A stretch of DNA of 30,643 bases from a virus. Positions 1 through 17,369 of this stretch are shown one piece after another. The stretch spans positions 1-30,643 of IMG/VR virus record IMGVR_UViG_3300042914_000102; one strand, given 5' to 3'. Position 1 is the stretch's first letter. Every line of letters begins with the position of its first letter. Under the pieces are notes generated by a model. The model had not been told where the DNA came from and made no database searches. It saw nothing but the letters and a program-made list of their open reading frames with translations. Both the position numbers and the translations under genes were made by a program.

Positions 1-42
1 AGAGGTATGGGGTCAGACTATGGGTTGGGGGTGGGACTATTA

Positions 43-2493: not shown

Positions 2494-2834
2494 AAGAAAA
2501 GATATTAGCTTATCTTACAGAACCACGAACCATAAACGACATAGCAGAACATATACAATCTAACTATCCTATTACAAAGAACATACTTGTAGAAATGAGA
2601 GATGCAAATGTTATTCACGCTTATAAAGATAACCAAAATAGGCTAATGCACTATTACGTTCCACAACCACATCCATTACAAACTATATTTGGACATACAG
2701 TAAACTTTACACCAGACCAAATAAAAGGCGTTACAAGTCATAATGCAGATGACGCTAAACATAATCTACAACACAAGACTACACAAGAAACTTATGGAGA
2801 AAGCGTAGCATATACGCTAACAAGATATGATTAG
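2490..2834 (+). CDS. Winged-helix-like phage regulatory protein
   Basis: A 114-residue protein. The N-terminal 50 residues (KEKILAYLTEPRTINDIAEHI...ILVEMRDANVIHAY) have the spacing of a winged helix-turn-helix: helix, TINDIAEHI turn helix, recognition helix, and then a wing from the NQNRLMHYYVP segment. The C-terminal half is unassigned. Start GTG 2490 is preferred because it overlaps the previous stop as GTGA and follows an AAAG-type ribosome site; an upstream ATG at 2463 would add nine non-family residues. It sits just before the Q-like gene, in the place where phage middle regulators are common. The DNA-binding role is inferred from the fold only. Confidence 0.6.
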   Translation: MKEKILAYLTEPRTINDIAEHIQSNYPITKNILVEMRDANVIHAYKDNQNRLMHYYVPQPHPLQTIFGHTVNFTPDQIKGVTSHNADDAKHNLQHKTTQETYGESVAYTLTRYD

Positions 2835-3156
2835 TATGGAACGTTTATTATCTATTATGCAAGACTGGTCTTTATGGATGAAGTCGGATAATCATAAGCT
2901 AGGTTATCCATCTAAAAGCATAGGTATGTCATCAGGAGGTGAGTCAACTTCAGAAGTATTCGAAGAAATGTGTTCAGCTCAAGATATGGCTAACATACGC
3001 ACCATAGACGCTATTATCCATAGCTTACCTAAAGAACAACAAGACGCTATATATGCTAGATACCTAGACGCTAAGAAACCATTAGCCTATCCATACAAGC
3101 TAGAACTAGCCTTTGACAATCTAATTACTATGGCTGCGAGAAGGATAAACGCATAA
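2827..3156 (+). CDS. Putative late-gene regulator (Q-like antiterminator)
   Basis: A 109-residue, mostly helical protein. The central part (TIDAIIHSLPKEQQDAIYARYL) resembles the sigma-like or antiterminator helix-turn-helix of small phage late regulators, where a LP...QQ.A...RY motif precedes a second helix (PYKLELAFDNLITMAARRI). Size and position fit: last gene of the early/middle block, directly before a strong promoter and an intrinsic terminator. That context is what suggests antitermination, as with lambda Q; no direct sequence proof of RNA polymerase contact is visible. It overlaps the upstream gene by 8 nt. An internal ATG at 2836 is an alternative start. Confidence 0.6.
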   Translation: MISMERLLSIMQDWSLWMKSDNHKLGYPSKSIGMSSGGESTSEVFEEMCSAQDMANIRTIDAIIHSLPKEQQDAIYARYLDAKKPLAYPYKLELAFDNLITMAARRINA

Positions 3157-3161
3157 TCTTG

Positions 3162-3191
3162 TTGAACAAAAATAGTAAAGTATGCTATAAT
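3162..3191 (+). promoter_or_regulatory. Candidate late promoter (extended -10, sigma70 type)
   Basis: TTGAAC at 3162-3167 and a perfect TATAAT at 3186-3191 are separated by 18 nt, with an upstream TG at 3183-3184 giving an extended -10 (TGCTATAAT). The start would fall near 3198. It lies in the only sizeable gap in the first 12.7 kb, directly after the Q-like gene and ahead of the whole late operon. The lambda late promoter pR' is placed in the same way. Confidence 0.8.
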
Positions 3192-3201
3192 AACGCCTGT
3201 A

Positions 3202-3218
3202 AGGGCATCCTATTGCCT
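3202..3218 (+). other. Small leader hairpin
   Basis: GGGCA (3203-3207) pairs with TGCCT (3214-3218) around the loop TCCTAT, only a few bases after the predicted transcription start. It is a short stem of five pairs including one G-U. It could act as a pause site or protein-binding element in the leader RNA. Its role is inferred from position alone. Confidence 0.35.
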
Positions 3219-3236
3219 AAAGAAACGTAATCCCAC

Positions 3237-3280
3237 AAAAGCCTGACTGCACTCTCTCCGTGGTTGGGCTTTTTCTTTTT
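3237..3280 (+). terminator. Intrinsic terminator in the late leader (tR'-like)
   Basis: AAAAGCCTGACTGC (3237-3250) pairs with GTGGTTGGGCTTTT (3260-3273) over 14 positions including four G-U pairs, around a nine-base loop, and is followed by a T-rich tract to 3280. It lies about 40 nt after the predicted late start, so an unmodified polymerase should release a leader RNA of roughly 80 nt. The first late gene starts at the very end of the T tract. Confidence 0.75.
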
Positions 3281-3451
3281 ATGAAACTATCTATTTGCGA
3301 ACAATGCGGTGAACCTTTTGACTTCACCGAATACTCTTTATGTAATGATTGTAGATACGATCACAGATTTATTAAGTTAAGGAAGAAGCATGAAGTCAGC
3401 ACCGAAGACAAAAGCAGGAAAGATGAAGAAAGTTGGGAAAGTAATGCGTGA
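3281..3451 (+). CDS. Small zinc-ribbon protein
   Basis: A 56-residue protein with two Cys pairs, CEQC at residues 6-9 and CNDC at 21-24, spaced like a treble-clef or zinc-ribbon knuckle, followed by a highly charged tail (KHEVSTEDKSRKDEESWE). I chose ATG 3281 because the earlier GTG at 3260 lies inside the terminator stem and adds a hydrophobic stretch coded by the T tract. No Shine-Dalgarno site precedes it; the leader before the ATG is nearly all T. The last 62 nt overlap the next gene in another frame. Function unknown; metal binding is inferred from the cysteines. Confidence 0.6.
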   Translation: MKLSICEQCGEPFDFTEYSLCNDCRYDHRFIKLRKKHEVSTEDKSRKDEESWESNA

Positions 3452-3566
3452 GTTTAAAACTGGCACATTACATTCAGGTAAGGGTGGTAAAGTAGTAAAA
3501 TCTCCTAAACAAGCTATTGCTATTGCTTTATCAGAAGCTGGCATGGCTAAAAAGAAAGGTAAATAA
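3390..3566 (+). CDS. Lys-rich small phage protein (DUF6496-like)
   Basis: A 58-residue basic protein. The block VMREFKTGTLHSG...GKVVKSPKQAIAIALSEA matches what I know as the DUF6496 family of phage and bacterial proteins, ending in a Lys/Gly tail. A good AAGGAAG ribosome site sits just before the ATG. It starts inside the zinc-ribbon gene and is followed two bases later by another basic protein. Function is unknown; the charge suggests contact with DNA or RNA. It is too short for many gene callers but is supported by the family pattern. Confidence 0.8.
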   Translation: MKSAPKTKAGKMKKVGKVMREFKTGTLHSGKGGKVVKSPKQAIAIALSEAGMAKKKGK

Positions 3567-3568
3567 TT

Positions 3569-3700
3569 ATGCCAATGGTAGACGGAAAAAAATACGCTTA
3601 TACTAAAACAGGTATGGCAGCAGCTAAAAAAGCAGCAGGCAAATCAGGTAAAACTATGGCAGCTAAGCCTATGAAAAAGGCAGCTAAACGTGGCAAATAA
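3569..3700 (+). CDS. Tiny Lys/Ala-rich basic protein
   Basis: A 43-residue protein starting MPMVDGKKYAYTKTGMAAAKKAA, which recurs in small phage proteins next to DUF6496 genes. Lys and Ala make up most of the rest, as in the tails of histone H1-like proteins. A GAAAGG ribosome site lies about 10 nt upstream. It overlaps the next gene by 11 nt. Nucleic-acid binding is inferred from composition only. Confidence 0.68.
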   Translation: MPMVDGKKYAYTKTGMAAAKKAAGKSGKTMAAKPMKKAAKRGK

Positions 3701-3842
3701 GCCAGGTCTATACGCTAACATTGCAGCCAAGAAAGCTAGAATTAAAGCTGGCTCTGGTGAAAAAATGCGTAAAGTAGGCACTAAAGGCGCACCAACTGCT
3801 AAAGCATTTAAACAAGCAGCAAAGACAGCTAAAAAGAAATGA
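3690..3842 (+). CDS. Tiny basic phage protein
   Basis: A 50-residue protein, VANKPGLYANIAAKKARIKAG then GEKMRKVGTKGAPTAKAFKQAAKTAKKK in separate blocks. The pattern GLYANI.AK..RI..GSGEKMR..G.KGAPT is one I recognise as recurrent in phage late regions. It starts at GTG 3690 with an AAGG site about 9 nt upstream, and its TGA overlaps the ATG of the next gene (ATGA). Strong positive charge; function unknown. Confidence 0.7.
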   Translation: MANKPGLYANIAAKKARIKAGSGEKMRKVGTKGAPTAKAFKQAAKTAKKK

Positions 3843-4132
3843 GTGTTTGGCAAAAGAAAGCAGGTAAGAACCCTAAAGGCGGTTTAAACGCTAAAGGTCG
3901 TGCATCTTACAATAAAGAAACAGGCGGTAATCTAAAAGCACCAGTTAAGTCAGGTGATAATCCTAGACGTGCATCATTCTTAGCTCGTATGGGTAATATG
4001 CCAGGACCAGAACGTAAGCCTAACGGTGAGCCAACAAGACTATTACTATCATTAAAGGCTTGGGGTGCTTCTAGTAAAGCAGATGCAAAAGCAAAGGCAA
4101 AGAATATTAGTTCACGCAACAAAAAGAAATGA
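3839..4132 (+). CDS. Basic phage protein, DUF6321-like
   Basis: A 97-residue protein with the conserved KKAGKNPKGGLNAKGRASYN block (residues 6-25), then GNLKAPVKSGDNPRRASFLARMG and MPGPERKPNGEPTRLLLSLKAWG. This is the pattern of DUF6321 proteins found in phages and some cyanobacteria. It ends in a Lys/Ala tail similar to the three preceding genes. The role is not known; a chromatin-like or DNA-packaging role is a guess from charge. It is coupled to its neighbours by ATGA overlaps at both ends. Confidence 0.8.
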   Translation: MSVWQKKAGKNPKGGLNAKGRASYNKETGGNLKAPVKSGDNPRRASFLARMGNMPGPERKPNGEPTRLLLSLKAWGASSKADAKAKAKNISSRNKKK

Positions 4133-4203
4133 ATTGGTTGTATATACTTTTAGCTGTTATAGCTGACATAGCACTATTAGTGAATGTATGGCATCATTGG
4201 TAA
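4129..4203 (+). CDS. 24-residue single-span membrane peptide
   Basis: The frame MNWLYILLAVIADIALLVNV, ending WHHW, is almost one continuous hydrophobic helix. Its ATG overlaps the previous stop (ATGA), and the next gene starts one base after its stop, so it fills the gap exactly. A similar membrane peptide begins at 30587. Small membrane peptides of this kind occur often in phage late operons; the role is unknown. The gap-filling position and composition are the evidence. Confidence 0.55.
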   Translation: MNWLYILLAVIADIALLVNVWHHW

Positions 4204-4204
4204 T

Positions 4205-4912
4205 ATGCAAAAACTAGATATATATGTAGGATATGATGGCAAAGTAGAACCAATTGCTTATCATAACTTTTGCCAGTCAGTTATAGAGAAGTCATCTATA
4301 CCGGTAAGTTTTACACCATTAGCACTAAATACTTTAAAAGATTACGAAGAAACACATAAAGACGGTAGTAACGCATTTATCTACTCACGCTTTTTAGTTC
4401 CATATCTAAATAACTTTAAAGGTATCGCACTATTCGTAGATGGCGATATGATATGTAGAACAGATATAGCAGAGATACTAGCTAACTTTGATAATGACGA
4501 AGCAGTCAAAGTCGTAAAGCATAACTACACAACAAAGCATCCAGTTAAATATCTAGGTGCAAAGAACGAGGACTATCCTAAAAAAAACTGGTCAAGCGTT
4601 ATGTTATGGAACTGTTCACATTGGCTCAATAAACAATTAACACCTAAGTTTGTCCAGGAACAAACAGGTAAATACCTACACAGGTTTGAATGGCTCAAGT
4701 ATCCGGAAGAGCAAGTAGGTAAGTTAGACGAAACATGGAACTGGCTAGAAACAGAATACGAATACAATCCAGATGCCAAACTAGTGCATCACACATTAGG
4801 CACACCATGCTTTAAAGACTATCAGAATACAGACTATAGTCAAGAATGGTGGGACTGCTATAAACGAATGATATATCCTCTAAAAGGAAAAGATAAAGAA
4901 AGCGAGCTCTAA
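4205..4912 (+). CDS. Glycosyltransferase, GT8-like (GT-A fold)
   Basis: A 235-residue protein beginning LDIYVGYDGKVEPIAY, the nucleotide-sugar binding strand of GT8-type enzymes. FVDGDM gives the DxD metal motif (Asp79-Asp81), followed by SSVMLWNCSHW and the C-terminal HHTLGTPCFKDY, with a His expected to bind the diphosphate. It would transfer a sugar from a nucleotide donor to an unknown acceptor in the host cytoplasm. I chose ATG 4205 because the earlier ATG at 4184 runs through the membrane-peptide gene. It lies in the late operon ahead of the terminase, so it could modify a virion protein or host surface glycan. The fold is clear, the substrate is not. Confidence 0.82.
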   Translation: MQKLDIYVGYDGKVEPIAYHNFCQSVIEKSSIPVSFTPLALNTLKDYEETHKDGSNAFIYSRFLVPYLNNFKGIALFVDGDMICRTDIAEILANFDNDEAVKVVKHNYTTKHPVKYLGAKNEDYPKKNWSSVMLWNCSHWLNKQLTPKFVQEQTGKYLHRFEWLKYPEEQVGKLDETWNWLETEYEYNPDAKLVHHTLGTPCFKDYQNTDYSQEWWDCYKRMIYPLKGKDKESEL

Positions 4913-13826: not shown

Positions 13827-14780
13827 ATGGCAGCATCAGCAACCAATAGCTACACCGGTAAAGGTATAGCAGAGTCATTTGAGGATATCATTTTTGATAT
13901 TTCTCCAGAAGACACACCATTGCTTTCATTAGCAAAAAGAATGTCAGCAGGTCAAACATACCATCAATGGCAAACAGATGCCTTAGCAGCAGCAGGCACT
14001 AACACAGCAGTTGAAGGTGATGACGCTTCATTCGCAACATTACCTGCTACAACAGTATTAGGTAACTACACACAAATCTCACGTAAAACAGTTCAAATTT
14101 CTAACACTTATGACGTTGTTCGTAAATATGGTCGTAAGTCTGAAGTTGCTTACCAACTTATGAAAGCTGGTAAAGAAATGAAACGTGACATGGAATATGC
14201 AATTGTACGTAACCAAGCATCATCAGCAGGTGGTCCAGCAACAGCTAGATCAACAGCAGGTATTGAATCTTGGATTACTAACCGAGTAATTGCAACAGGT
14301 TCTACAGCAGGTACAACACCTGGCTTCTCAAATGGCACAGTAGCATCACCAACAGATGGTACTTCTGTAACATTCATTGAAGCAGACTTGAAATCAGCAT
14401 TACAATTAGCTTGGACAGATGGTGGCGAACCATCATTAATTCTTATGTCAGCAACTAACAAAGCTCGTTTCTCAGGCTTTGCAGGTATTGCTACTAAGTT
14501 CAACAATGTTCAAGGTACAACACAAGCAACAATTACTGGCGCTGCAGACGTTTACGTTTCAGACTTCGGTAACCACACAGTTAAACTAGACCGTTTCATG
14601 AGAGATCAAGCTGTTCTCTGCGTTGATCCTGGTTATGTTGGTTTAGCTTCACTACGCCCATTAAGCAAAGAAGAACTTGCTAAAACAGGCGATAGCACAA
14701 AATGGTTACTCACAGCAGAATACGCATTAGTGGTTCAAAACCCAGATGCACATGCTAAAGTACAAAACGTAGGTGCTTAG
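13827..14780 (+). CDS. Major capsid protein (SU10/DUF5309 family)
   Basis: A 317-residue protein with an HK97-type coat fold by family. The N-terminal SYTGKGIAESFEDIIFDISP and PLLSLAKRM blocks, followed by YHQWQTDAL, AVEGDDA and RKTVQISNTYDVVRKYGR, match the DUF5309/SU10 major head protein family. The late segment FGNHTVKLDRFMRDQAVLCVDP and EYALVVQNPDAH complete it. It follows the scaffold by 21 nt with an AAGGAAA site and is closed by a strong terminator. Base use looks less AT-biased at wobble positions than its neighbours, fitting high expression. Confidence 0.93.
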   Translation: MAASATNSYTGKGIAESFEDIIFDISPEDTPLLSLAKRMSAGQTYHQWQTDALAAAGTNTAVEGDDASFATLPATTVLGNYTQISRKTVQISNTYDVVRKYGRKSEVAYQLMKAGKEMKRDMEYAIVRNQASSAGGPATARSTAGIESWITNRVIATGSTAGTTPGFSNGTVASPTDGTSVTFIEADLKSALQLAWTDGGEPSLILMSATNKARFSGFAGIATKFNNVQGTTQATITGAADVYVSDFGNHTVKLDRFMRDQAVLCVDPGYVGLASLRPLSKEELAKTGDSTKWLLTAEYALVVQNPDAHAKVQNVGA

Positions 14781-14792
14781 TAAGTAGATGTG

Positions 14793-14829
14793 ATACAATA
14801 GAGGGTGTTAATTCGCCCTCTTTGTATTT
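14793..14829 (+). terminator. Intrinsic terminator after the capsid gene
   Basis: AGAGGG (14800-14805) pairs with CCCTCT (14816-14821), and the flanks ATACAA and TTGTAT extend the stem with one bulged T. It ends in a T-rich tract. It probably caps the abundant capsid transcript and protects its 3' end while allowing some read-through to downstream genes. Confidence 0.88.
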
Positions 14830-14835
14830 TTATAT

Positions 14836-15159: not shown

Positions 15160-15286
15160 ATATATTCTAGTTATCTGTATGTTACTTACAGGATGCACAC
15201 AATTTGCAGCATCTGTATCAGGAACATTTATAGGTAACATTGCTTCAGATAGAGTAATAAAAGATATGGATAAAAATAAGAAGTAA
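15152..15286 (+). CDS. Small lipoprotein (hidden gene)
   Basis: A 44-residue frame from GTG 15152: VAKYILVICMLLTGCTQFAA, then a Gly/Ser segment and a basic end DRVIKDMDKNKK. A Lys, a hydrophobic stretch and the lipobox LLTGC form a classic lipoprotein signal, so the mature peptide would be about 30 residues anchored by a lipidated Cys. It fits exactly between its neighbours: the GTG overlaps the upstream stop, and its TAATG overlaps the next start. Small phage lipoproteins include Rz1 spanins, but no Rz partner is visible here, so an envelope role such as exclusion is equally possible. Confidence 0.72.
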   Translation: MAKYILVICMLLTGCTQFAASVSGTFIGNIASDRVIKDMDKNKK

Positions 15287-16614
15287 TGGATAAAGACGAA
15301 TTAAAGAATATACAATTAGCTATACACGACCTTATCACTAAGGAAGCGTATGACGAAGCATTACCTCTAATCTACACAGTATTAGAAATATATCCTAATG
15401 ATGCAGCTACACTAAACTTCTTAGGTTATATTTGGCTACAAGGCGATAAGCCAGCATTTGCTTACCAATTCTTCCGTAGAGCATTACAAGAACAACCAGG
15501 TAACAAAGCATTATGGACATCTTTAGGTCGTGCAGCTCACGAAATGGATATGCCAGAGGAAGCTATACAATACTTCCTAAAGTCAGCAGAACTAGACCCT
15601 AGTTATCATTTAGCTTATTCTAATGCAGCAGCAACGCTAGTACAGATGTCTAAATGGGATGATGCAGAAAAGTCATGTAAGATGGCTTTAGAATGCAATT
15701 CTACAGATTTACACGCACAATTAAACCTAGCACATAGTTATCTAGCCAAAGGTGAATATGATAAAGGCTGGAAAGAATGGGGTAAGTCTTTAGGTGGTAA
15801 GTTCCGTAAAGAATGGGTATATGGTAACGAAGTAAGATGGGATGGAACACCAGATAAAACATTAGTTATCTATGGAGAACAAGGTTTAGGTGATGAGATA
15901 TTTTATGGCTCATGTATTCCTGACGCTATAAAAGCTAGTAAGAAAGTCTATATAGACTGTGATCCTAAACTAGAAACATTATTTAGACGTAGTTTTCCTG
16001 AAGCAGAAGTACATGGTACTCGTAAAGAAGCTCATCCTGAATGGATAGCAGATAAAGAATTTGATTACAGATGTGGTGTAGGTGGATTACCAGAGTTCTT
16101 TAGACATAACAATAAAGACTTTCCTGGTACGCCTTATTTAAAAGCTGATCCTGAAAAACGTATTATGTGGAGAGCTTTGTTTGACTCTTATAAAAAGAAA
16201 GTCATAGGTATTACTACAAAAGGTGGTATTAAACTCACCAATGCTAAAGGTCGTAAGCTTACAGAAGATGACTTACAACCATTATTAAGACGCAAAGACA
16301 TACAATTAGTAAGCCTAGATTATAGCGTAGAACGCAAAATTGATGGCGTAAAATACTTTGAATTTGCGACAGACGCAAAAGATTATGATGACACAGCAGC
16401 TATGATTGCTGAACTAGATATGGTTCTAGGTGTCAATACTACAGCTCAACATTGTGCTAGTGCTATGGGTGTTAAAACATGGTGTCTAGTACCTAAGTAT
16501 CACCAATGGCGTTATGCTCAACCTAGTATGCCTTGGTATCGCCACATGAGACTAATTTATCAAGATAACAGAACATGGCGAGAAGTCATTGAAAGTGTAG
16601 CCACCCAAATATAA
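15286..16614 (+). CDS. TPR-containing glycosyltransferase-like protein
   Basis: A 442-residue protein. Residues 1 to about 165 hold roughly four or five tetratricopeptide repeats (A...Y.....P.N..ALW..LG.A pattern). From about residue 190 follows a GT-B-like domain beginning TLVIYGEQGLGDEIFYGS, the loop seen in TPR-linked GT41/GT9-type proteins, and later MVLGVNTTAQHCASAMGV, the nucleotide-sugar site. This layout suggests a sugar transferase acting on protein or lipid acceptors. It begins a block of three such genes placed between capsid and adaptor genes. Activity has not been shown for such phage genes; the fold is well supported. Confidence 0.82.
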   Translation: MDKDELKNIQLAIHDLITKEAYDEALPLIYTVLEIYPNDAATLNFLGYIWLQGDKPAFAYQFFRRALQEQPGNKALWTSLGRAAHEMDMPEEAIQYFLKSAELDPSYHLAYSNAAATLVQMSKWDDAEKSCKMALECNSTDLHAQLNLAHSYLAKGEYDKGWKEWGKSLGGKFRKEWVYGNEVRWDGTPDKTLVIYGEQGLGDEIFYGSCIPDAIKASKKVYIDCDPKLETLFRRSFPEAEVHGTRKEAHPEWIADKEFDYRCGVGGLPEFFRHNNKDFPGTPYLKADPEKRIMWRALFDSYKKKVIGITTKGGIKLTNAKGRKLTEDDLQPLLRRKDIQLVSLDYSVERKIDGVKYFEFATDAKDYDDTAAMIAELDMVLGVNTTAQHCASAMGVKTWCLVPKYHQWRYAQPSMPWYRHMRLIYQDNRTWREVIESVATQI

Positions 16615-17369
16615 TGGGCATGGGTGATTGGATCATGGCTTCAGGTGAAGTTAAGGAAGCAAACGAAAGAACCGGTAAGAAGGTTAAGCTAGGTGATGGT
16701 GTAAGAATGTATGCAGATGGTCAAATATTTGCTAACAATCCTAGAATGGCATCCAATTCAGATACCAATGTTGTATGGGTAAAGAATTACCAAGGGCATA
16801 GACCATATATCGCAGGTAGTAAAAATGGACACATGATATTTAATGACGAATATAAACCTAAAGCAGGTGAGATATTCTTTAGTCACGAAGAAAAGAAGTG
16901 GATAGATAGTTTTGATAAAGGTGACTACATTGTCGTAGAGCCTAATGTTAAAAAAACATATATACACACAGTTAATAAAGCATGGGATAAATGGGAAGCA
17001 TTACTTAAACATGATTTACCATGGCTACAATTAGGTGATGTATCTACACCTAAATACACAAGGTGGCAAGAAACACCTACCTTTAGAAACGCATTACAAG
17101 TATTAAGCAAAGCAAAGTTATTTGTAGGAACAGACGGTGGTTTACATCATGCAGCAGCAGCTTTAGGCATACCATCTGTAGTTATTTGGACAGGATTTAC
17201 TTCACCGAGGCATTTAGGATATGACACCCATAGAAATATACATGACGGTTCAGAGCCATGTGGGACTTTTCATAGCGTATGTCAACATTGCCTTCTAAAA
17301 GCGAAAAACATATCTGTAGAACAGGTTTTAGATGCAATTAATACTGAGTGGTATAGAACGCAGAGATAA
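16614..17369 (+). CDS. GT9-like glycosyltransferase domain protein
   Basis: A 251-residue protein beginning MGMGDWIMASGEVKEANERT, a start common in marine and freshwater phages. The middle RGHRPY-like strand (here YQGHRPYIAG) and the C-terminal KLFVGTDGGLHHAAAALGIPSVVIW match the GT9/ADP-heptosyltransferase donor-binding half. The conserved GT9 pattern is GxDGGxxHxAxA. A CGTFHSVCQHC stretch near the C-terminus could bind metal. It overlaps the upstream gene by one base and the next by 38 nt, so all three are read together. Substrate unknown. Confidence 0.78.
   Translation: MGMGDWIMASGEVKEANERTGKKVKLGDGVRMYADGQIFANNPRMASNSDTNVVWVKNYQGHRPYIAGSKNGHMIFNDEYKPKAGEIFFSHEEKKWIDSFDKGDYIVVEPNVKKTYIHTVNKAWDKWEALLKHDLPWLQLGDVSTPKYTRWQETPTFRNALQVLSKAKLFVGTDGGLHHAAAALGIPSVVIWTGFTSPRHLGYDTHRNIHDGSEPCGTFHSVCQHCLLKAKNISVEQVLDAINTEWYRTQR

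Follow-up and report, generated by a model that had tools for sequence, protein, structure and literature searches.

A predicted Q-dependent late-gene switch

Analysis of the window, that is, the whole 30,643-base virus record, points to a Q-dependent late-gene switch of the pR'-tR' type (probability about 0.85), in which the product of the gene at 2827, here called mini-Q, would let RNA polymerase read through a terminator in the leader of the late transcript. A Q-type gene is directly followed by a promoter and an intrinsic terminator at the head of the late genes (Table 1); this anatomy is conserved across related loci and tightly linked to mini-Q, which itself shows distant kinship to the PF06530 family. 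The layout of the switch is of a known kind, while the step by which the protein is loaded is possibly its new part.

Table 1. Elements of the predicted late switch and their positions in the window
Feature	Position	Strand	Basis or remark
mini-Q, 109-aa Q21-family-like antiterminator candidate	2827-3156	+	PF06530 sub-threshold match, annotated relatives, AlphaFold model
CATAATSTTG, conserved	3152-3161	+	adjoins -35 on the upstream side
-35 element TTGAAC of the predicted late promoter	3162-3167	+	read from sequence
Spacer, 18 nt	3168-3185	+	extended -10 TG at 3183-3184 (TGC); its other positions are almost as variable as the 4-fold sites of Q
-10 element TATAAT	3186-3191	+	expected start near 3198
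5' RNA hairpin GGGCA-TCCTAT-TGCCT	3203-3218, about +6 to +21	+	arms 3203-3207/3214-3218
Conserved AACGTAAT box	3224-3231, about +27	+	in the cousin group as CCGTAAT
Predicted intrinsic terminator, tR'-like	3237-3280	+	14-pair stem 3237-3250/3260-3273 and T tract
First late-region ORF, zinc-ribbon-like, 56 aa from ATG	3281-3451	+	start codon abuts the T tract

The promoter, the leader terminator and the late region

The earlier note had described a TTGAAC and, beyond an 18-nt spacer, TGCTATAAT, with a 14-pair hairpin and T tract downstream. The hairpin and T tract lie at 3237-3280, and the description is borne out by both the sequence and RNA folding. The mini-Q ORF ends six bases before TTGAAC. 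On the two strands of the 30.6 kb window TGNTATAAT is found once, and the pattern TTGNNN-15..19-TATAAT has two matches in the window, one of which is the late promoter. A scan with a generic promoter consensus recovered 27 sites as against 34.7 in shuffled sequences, i.e. not above chance, and the weight for the promoter therefore rests on its conservation. Folding of 3197-3281 with RNAfold gave a terminator hairpin with a 9-nt loop and a T-rich stretch at 3270-3280; the fold has a z of -2.9 and none of 200 shuffles was equally stable. This hairpin was missed by a stock terminator scan because the loop limit of that scan is 8 nt. Only two strong + strand terminators are present in the window, namely that of the leader (-16.3 kcal/mol) and another at 14787-14830 (-19.3 kcal/mol), directly after the capsid-type gene 13827-14780 (major capsid). 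Late transcription must get past the terminator at 14787-14830.

From 3281 to the end of the window the main ORFs, including the terminase and portal genes, lie on the same strand, amounting to ~27 kb of co-directional genes. The late region opens with small ORFs (3281-4132) coding for zinc-ribbon-like, DUF6496 and DUF6321 proteins, and the first late start codon, at 3281, has no clear ribosome-binding site. Lying amid the structural genes are a glycosyltransferase-family-8-like gene (4184-4912) and, as judged by eye, TPR/glycosyltransferase-looking ORFs (15286-17369).

Conservation of the block across related loci

A scan of viral contigs with the Q protein recovered 307 relatives, 80 of which were kept, and further scans with the Q proteins of MW202481 (63% identical) and Venkman (52%) as queries added more relatives. 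In the first two groups of loci, i.e. that of the window and the MW202481-like cousin group, a TTGNNN-15..19-TATAAT promoter follows Q in 173 of the 174 loci that remained after removal of fragments, some of which overlap on the same contig; upstream of Q the same pattern has 23 matches in 466 kb (0.005 per 100 nt). A search with a DNA pattern, blind to Q, fetched 54 leaders, every one of which (54/54) has mini-Q upstream, within 60 nt in 49 of them; a terminator is present in 53 of the 54, and the remaining contig ends at that point. With these counts the layout on which the earlier note had based Q-dependent late control, a short leader with the Q gene upstream of it, is strongly supported, and the control itself is a function predicted from sequence.

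In about ten loci of the window's group an extra gene lies between Q and the promoter (L004, L005, L008, L014, L029, L044, L050, L059, L068, L077), and the block of promoter, hairpin, box and terminator is found intact 570-950 nt downstream of Q, all of it 3' of the inserted gene. Conservation at the upstream edge of the block extends to the TTG just before the -35 element, which has a pi of about 0 in the window's group, and ATAATSTTG is largely kept in the loci where the inserted gene separates Q from the promoter. The start of the inserted gene reads as a DNA methyltransferase in several loci, and in some relatives the gap between Q and promoter is a cargo hot spot just ahead of the late switch.

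In the cousin group (L085-L164) the -35 element TTGACA contains the TGA with which Q ends, and the terminators, located 60-80 nt after TATAAT, differ widely in sequence and sometimes come as tandem pairs. This pattern bears on a reading in which the terminator merely insulates early from late transcription, the promoter being incidental and no antitermination taking place. Intrinsic terminators between operons are common, which speaks for such an insulator; however, it would be expected upstream of the late promoter, and in the leaders seen here the terminator is 3' of the promoter, where in the absence of an antiterminator it would shut the late operon off. Moreover, a terminator persists downstream of the late promoter even as the sequence that provides it turns over, as expected of a Q-type switch but not of an insulator. 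The insulator reading is very improbable. More remote relatives extend the picture in two directions: in EBPR podovirus 1 and two relatives, whose Q is 34% identical, reading by eye places a promoter, then a short hairpin and a terminator after Q, with terS following this array in EBPR podovirus 1; in the group of Methylophilales phage Venkman, a cultured relative, Q is present with no such block right after it, which counts against the switch reading, and the late genes are on the other strand. A search by eye for a Venkman late promoter settled on none.

The mini-Q protein

The small Q-like helical protein that the earlier note had placed before the promoter is recovered as the product of 2827-3156, with five helices in its AlphaFold model. 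A Pfam scan with mini-Q detected PF06530, the phage-21 Q family, at 19.2 bits (E 0.0012), under the cut-off of 26; eight of ten mini-Q relatives match the same family (best E 2.3e-4), and relatives carry annotation as antitermination proteins. A profile of the mini-Q family was aligned by hhalign with ten lambdoid Q21/QuuD-type proteins over residues 5-73 (E 2e-4, probability 46%); single-sequence hhalign with QuuD was uninformative. The NCBIfam scan gave weak sub-threshold matches only, some of them to sigma factors, the PDB sequence search gave spurious PPR repeats with the single sequence and nothing with the profile, and a scan of GTDB genomes with the mini-Q profile found no relative. The Q proteins comprise three families, PF06530, PF03589 (lambda) and PF06323 (phage 82) (PMC7171158), and mini-Q did not match the lambda Q family PF03589 in the Pfam scan, which admitted hits up to E 1. 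These sequence comparisons set mini-Q apart from lambda Q and make it, probably, a compact protein distantly related to the phage-21 Q family. The unlikeness to lambda Q was thus rightly noticed, but the newness drawn from it does not follow from that unlikeness alone, because mini-Q is probably a distant relation of a structurally solved Q family.

AlphaFold models of two family members (pLDDT 80 and 77) place helices at about residues 4-19, 41-48, 51-66, 69-80 and 88-106, with residues 22-40 as a disordered loop. Fold searches gave no significant PDB match; among the weak matches, entries for sigma region 4 and Q21 stand out. The 21Q protein is described as sigma-R4-like, with a mobile segment that makes a ring inside the RNA exit channel (PMC6606751). 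The two proteins appear to be alike in three respects: the N-terminal half can be aligned by profile, the helices resemble sigma region 4, and the disordered loop that separates the first helix of mini-Q from the later ones sits at the place of the ring-forming segment of 21Q. They differ towards the C-terminus, where the mini-Q models have helix 69-80, a loop and helix 88-106 with no separate first HTH helix: merely ~7-8 residues remain between these last two helices, at the place where lambdoid members have the first HTH helix. In the models the first helix of the DNA-binding HTH hence appears to be missing, and ST64T-type Q21 members are roughly 160-170 aa long as against 108-109 aa for mini-Q. 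Together, the models and the alignment suggest that mini-Q keeps the RNA-channel half of the family, with the DNA-reading half reduced.

The promoter spacer and the search for a Q site

The Q site of phage 21 lies between -35 and -10 and is made up of direct TGAGCA repeats, to which two Q protomers bind (PMC6606751); the repeats are 8 bp apart. The same switch could operate here through a canonical phage-21-type QBE, with mini-Q binding the -35/-10 DNA at a sigma-dependent pause and the site being degenerate. Kinship to PF06530 would fit this, but locus L001, whose Q protein is 100% identical to that of the window, has a spacer only 39% identical (61% of positions differ), and spacer diversity is 0.39 versus 0.49 at 4-fold sites of Q in the window's group and 0.39 versus 0.42 in the cousin group. 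Several members of the window's group, among them the window itself, have in the spacer a weak repeat that matches at 5 of 6 bases and has the 8 bp phage-21 spacing; against this, the direct repeats of the present family do not exceed those of shuffles (median P 0.8 and 0.59). By the same test, in contrast, P was about 0.01 for SE10 and MII_001, two of the four lambdoid PF06530 controls (HK639 and ST64T have repeats at 5 of 6 bases, not significant alone). Similarly, many leaders of the cousin group have an extended -10-like TGGGATAGT, of the pause element type, near +3 to +11, which would favor a phage-21-like pause, but leaders of the window's own group have no such element above shuffles. 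Because an identical Q occurs with a 39% identical spacer, there is, as far as the sequences go, no conserved QBE of the phage-21 kind in the spacer; this, together with the apparently truncated HTH, disfavors recognition of two direct repeats as in phage 21, and the degenerate QBE is a possible if doubtful reading. Conservation in the block falls instead on the promoter hexamers, the CGTAAT box and the 5' hairpin and, within the window's group, on the TTG that precedes -35. The proposal of a new mechanistic variant in the earlier note can accordingly be kept for the truncated-looking HTH and the spacer without a conserved Q site, and given up where it drew newness merely from unlikeness to lambda Q.

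The repeated AACG (after -10, at +27 and at the end of the Q gene) was also considered as a Q site and dropped, because the copy after -10 is not conserved. Among the lambdoid PF06530 phages (L216-L219) SE10 has Q repeats of the TGAGCA type, whereas those of MII_001 and ST64T are of the TAGCCA type; that the sites differ between phages with Q proteins about 85% alike suggests specificity swaps. The leader terminator of the same phages contains a conserved GTGACTCTTAAGT stretch.

The leader RNA

The smaller second hairpin of the leader (3203-3218) is a feature absent from the earlier note. In the window's group it occurs in 13 arm/loop combinations; all nine of its 5-bp stem types pair fully, with G-C/A-U exchange at two positions, and one hairpin type has a single pair missing on both sides. 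With the arms in structural register, re-pairing reaches the observed pairing with P 0.025, the arms having been picked for best pairing and relatedness not controlled. In the MAFFT register 81.5% of the cells pair, as compared to at most 46% when the arms are slid, and covariation is not above column shuffles, partly because loops of 5 and 6 nt shift the stems out of register. An alignment of leaders from mixed groups yielded no structure, and an Rfam scan gave chance-level matches only, e.g. algC at E 0.88. Covariation in these sequences lends modest support to the hairpin, which could stabilise a pause, bind Q or shield the 5' end of the mRNA. The CGTAAT box at about +27 is common to both groups.

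The terminator hairpin including its loop is near invariant in the window's group (pi of about 0 versus 0.49 neutral). An unpaired CUCUCCG is conserved in both groups at different places, being in the terminator loop in one (window 3251-3262) and between the hairpins in the other (L085-L164). Late leaders of some Stx phages have been reported to function as small RNAs, and both of these observations would be explained if the terminated leader were itself a functional small RNA, an explanation compatible with the switch, since both may hold. However, the cousin group replaces its terminator freely, and the sole + strand GGAGAG in the window (16169) does not coincide with a start codon; within the window no complement of the conserved CUCUCC, as a target of such an RNA, lies near starts. 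A small RNA role for the leader hence appears unlikely.

Comparison with known systems and a proposed mechanism

The closest counterpart of the predicted switch is the pR'-QBE-tR' system of phage 21 (PF06530), which likewise has the Q gene right before the late promoter and a short leader ending in an intrinsic terminator. It differs in that the present leader of ~78 nt has an extra 5' hairpin and the CGTAAT box, and the spacer, besides the apparent loss of the first HTH helix from the protein, lacks a direct-repeat QBE of the Q21 family. The circuit logic is also like that of lambda Q at pR'-tR', where the leader is far longer. AlpA of Pseudomonas aeruginosa has a Q21-like fold without sequence similarity (PMC9371919), and it too is an antiterminator that loads at a promoter followed by a terminator. 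It differs in reading a GGGACG element between -35 and -10, of which the present phage family has no conserved equivalent.

We infer promoter activity, termination, antitermination and an exit-channel mechanism, which would combine as follows. Host RNA polymerase of the sigma-70 type would use the extended -10 promoter constitutively, starting at about 3198, and as long as the phage protein is absent it would stop at the intrinsic terminator to give the ~78-nt leader RNA. The 2827 product would join the polymerase near the promoter and close its RNA exit channel, whereupon terminators would be read through and the ~27 kb of structural genes transcribed. As the signal that loads mini-Q, the strongest candidate is the 5' RNA hairpin together with the CGTAAT box, which may be a pause site. 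In HK022 put and lambda N-nut a hairpin in the nascent RNA is the antitermination signal; these are not Q-family systems, and any likeness would lie in the 5' hairpin. By analogy, mini-Q might be loaded by nascent RNA and not by DNA reading with a full HTH, the +6 to +21 hairpin with the CGTAAT pause site acting as a nut/put-like signal; we offer this tentatively, as a rather improbable version of the loading step.

Significance

Q proteins are the textbook processive antiterminators, and the solved complexes of 21Q and AlpA load by reading promoter DNA. A large natural collection of environmental phages in which Q is small, no DNA site can be recognised and a 5' RNA hairpin is conserved could reveal a minimal antiterminator, and this set of mini-Q phages permits a direct test of RNA loading of a Q. 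Furthermore, mini-Q together with the leader block provides a simple genomic marker by which to locate where the late operon begins in uncultured phages.
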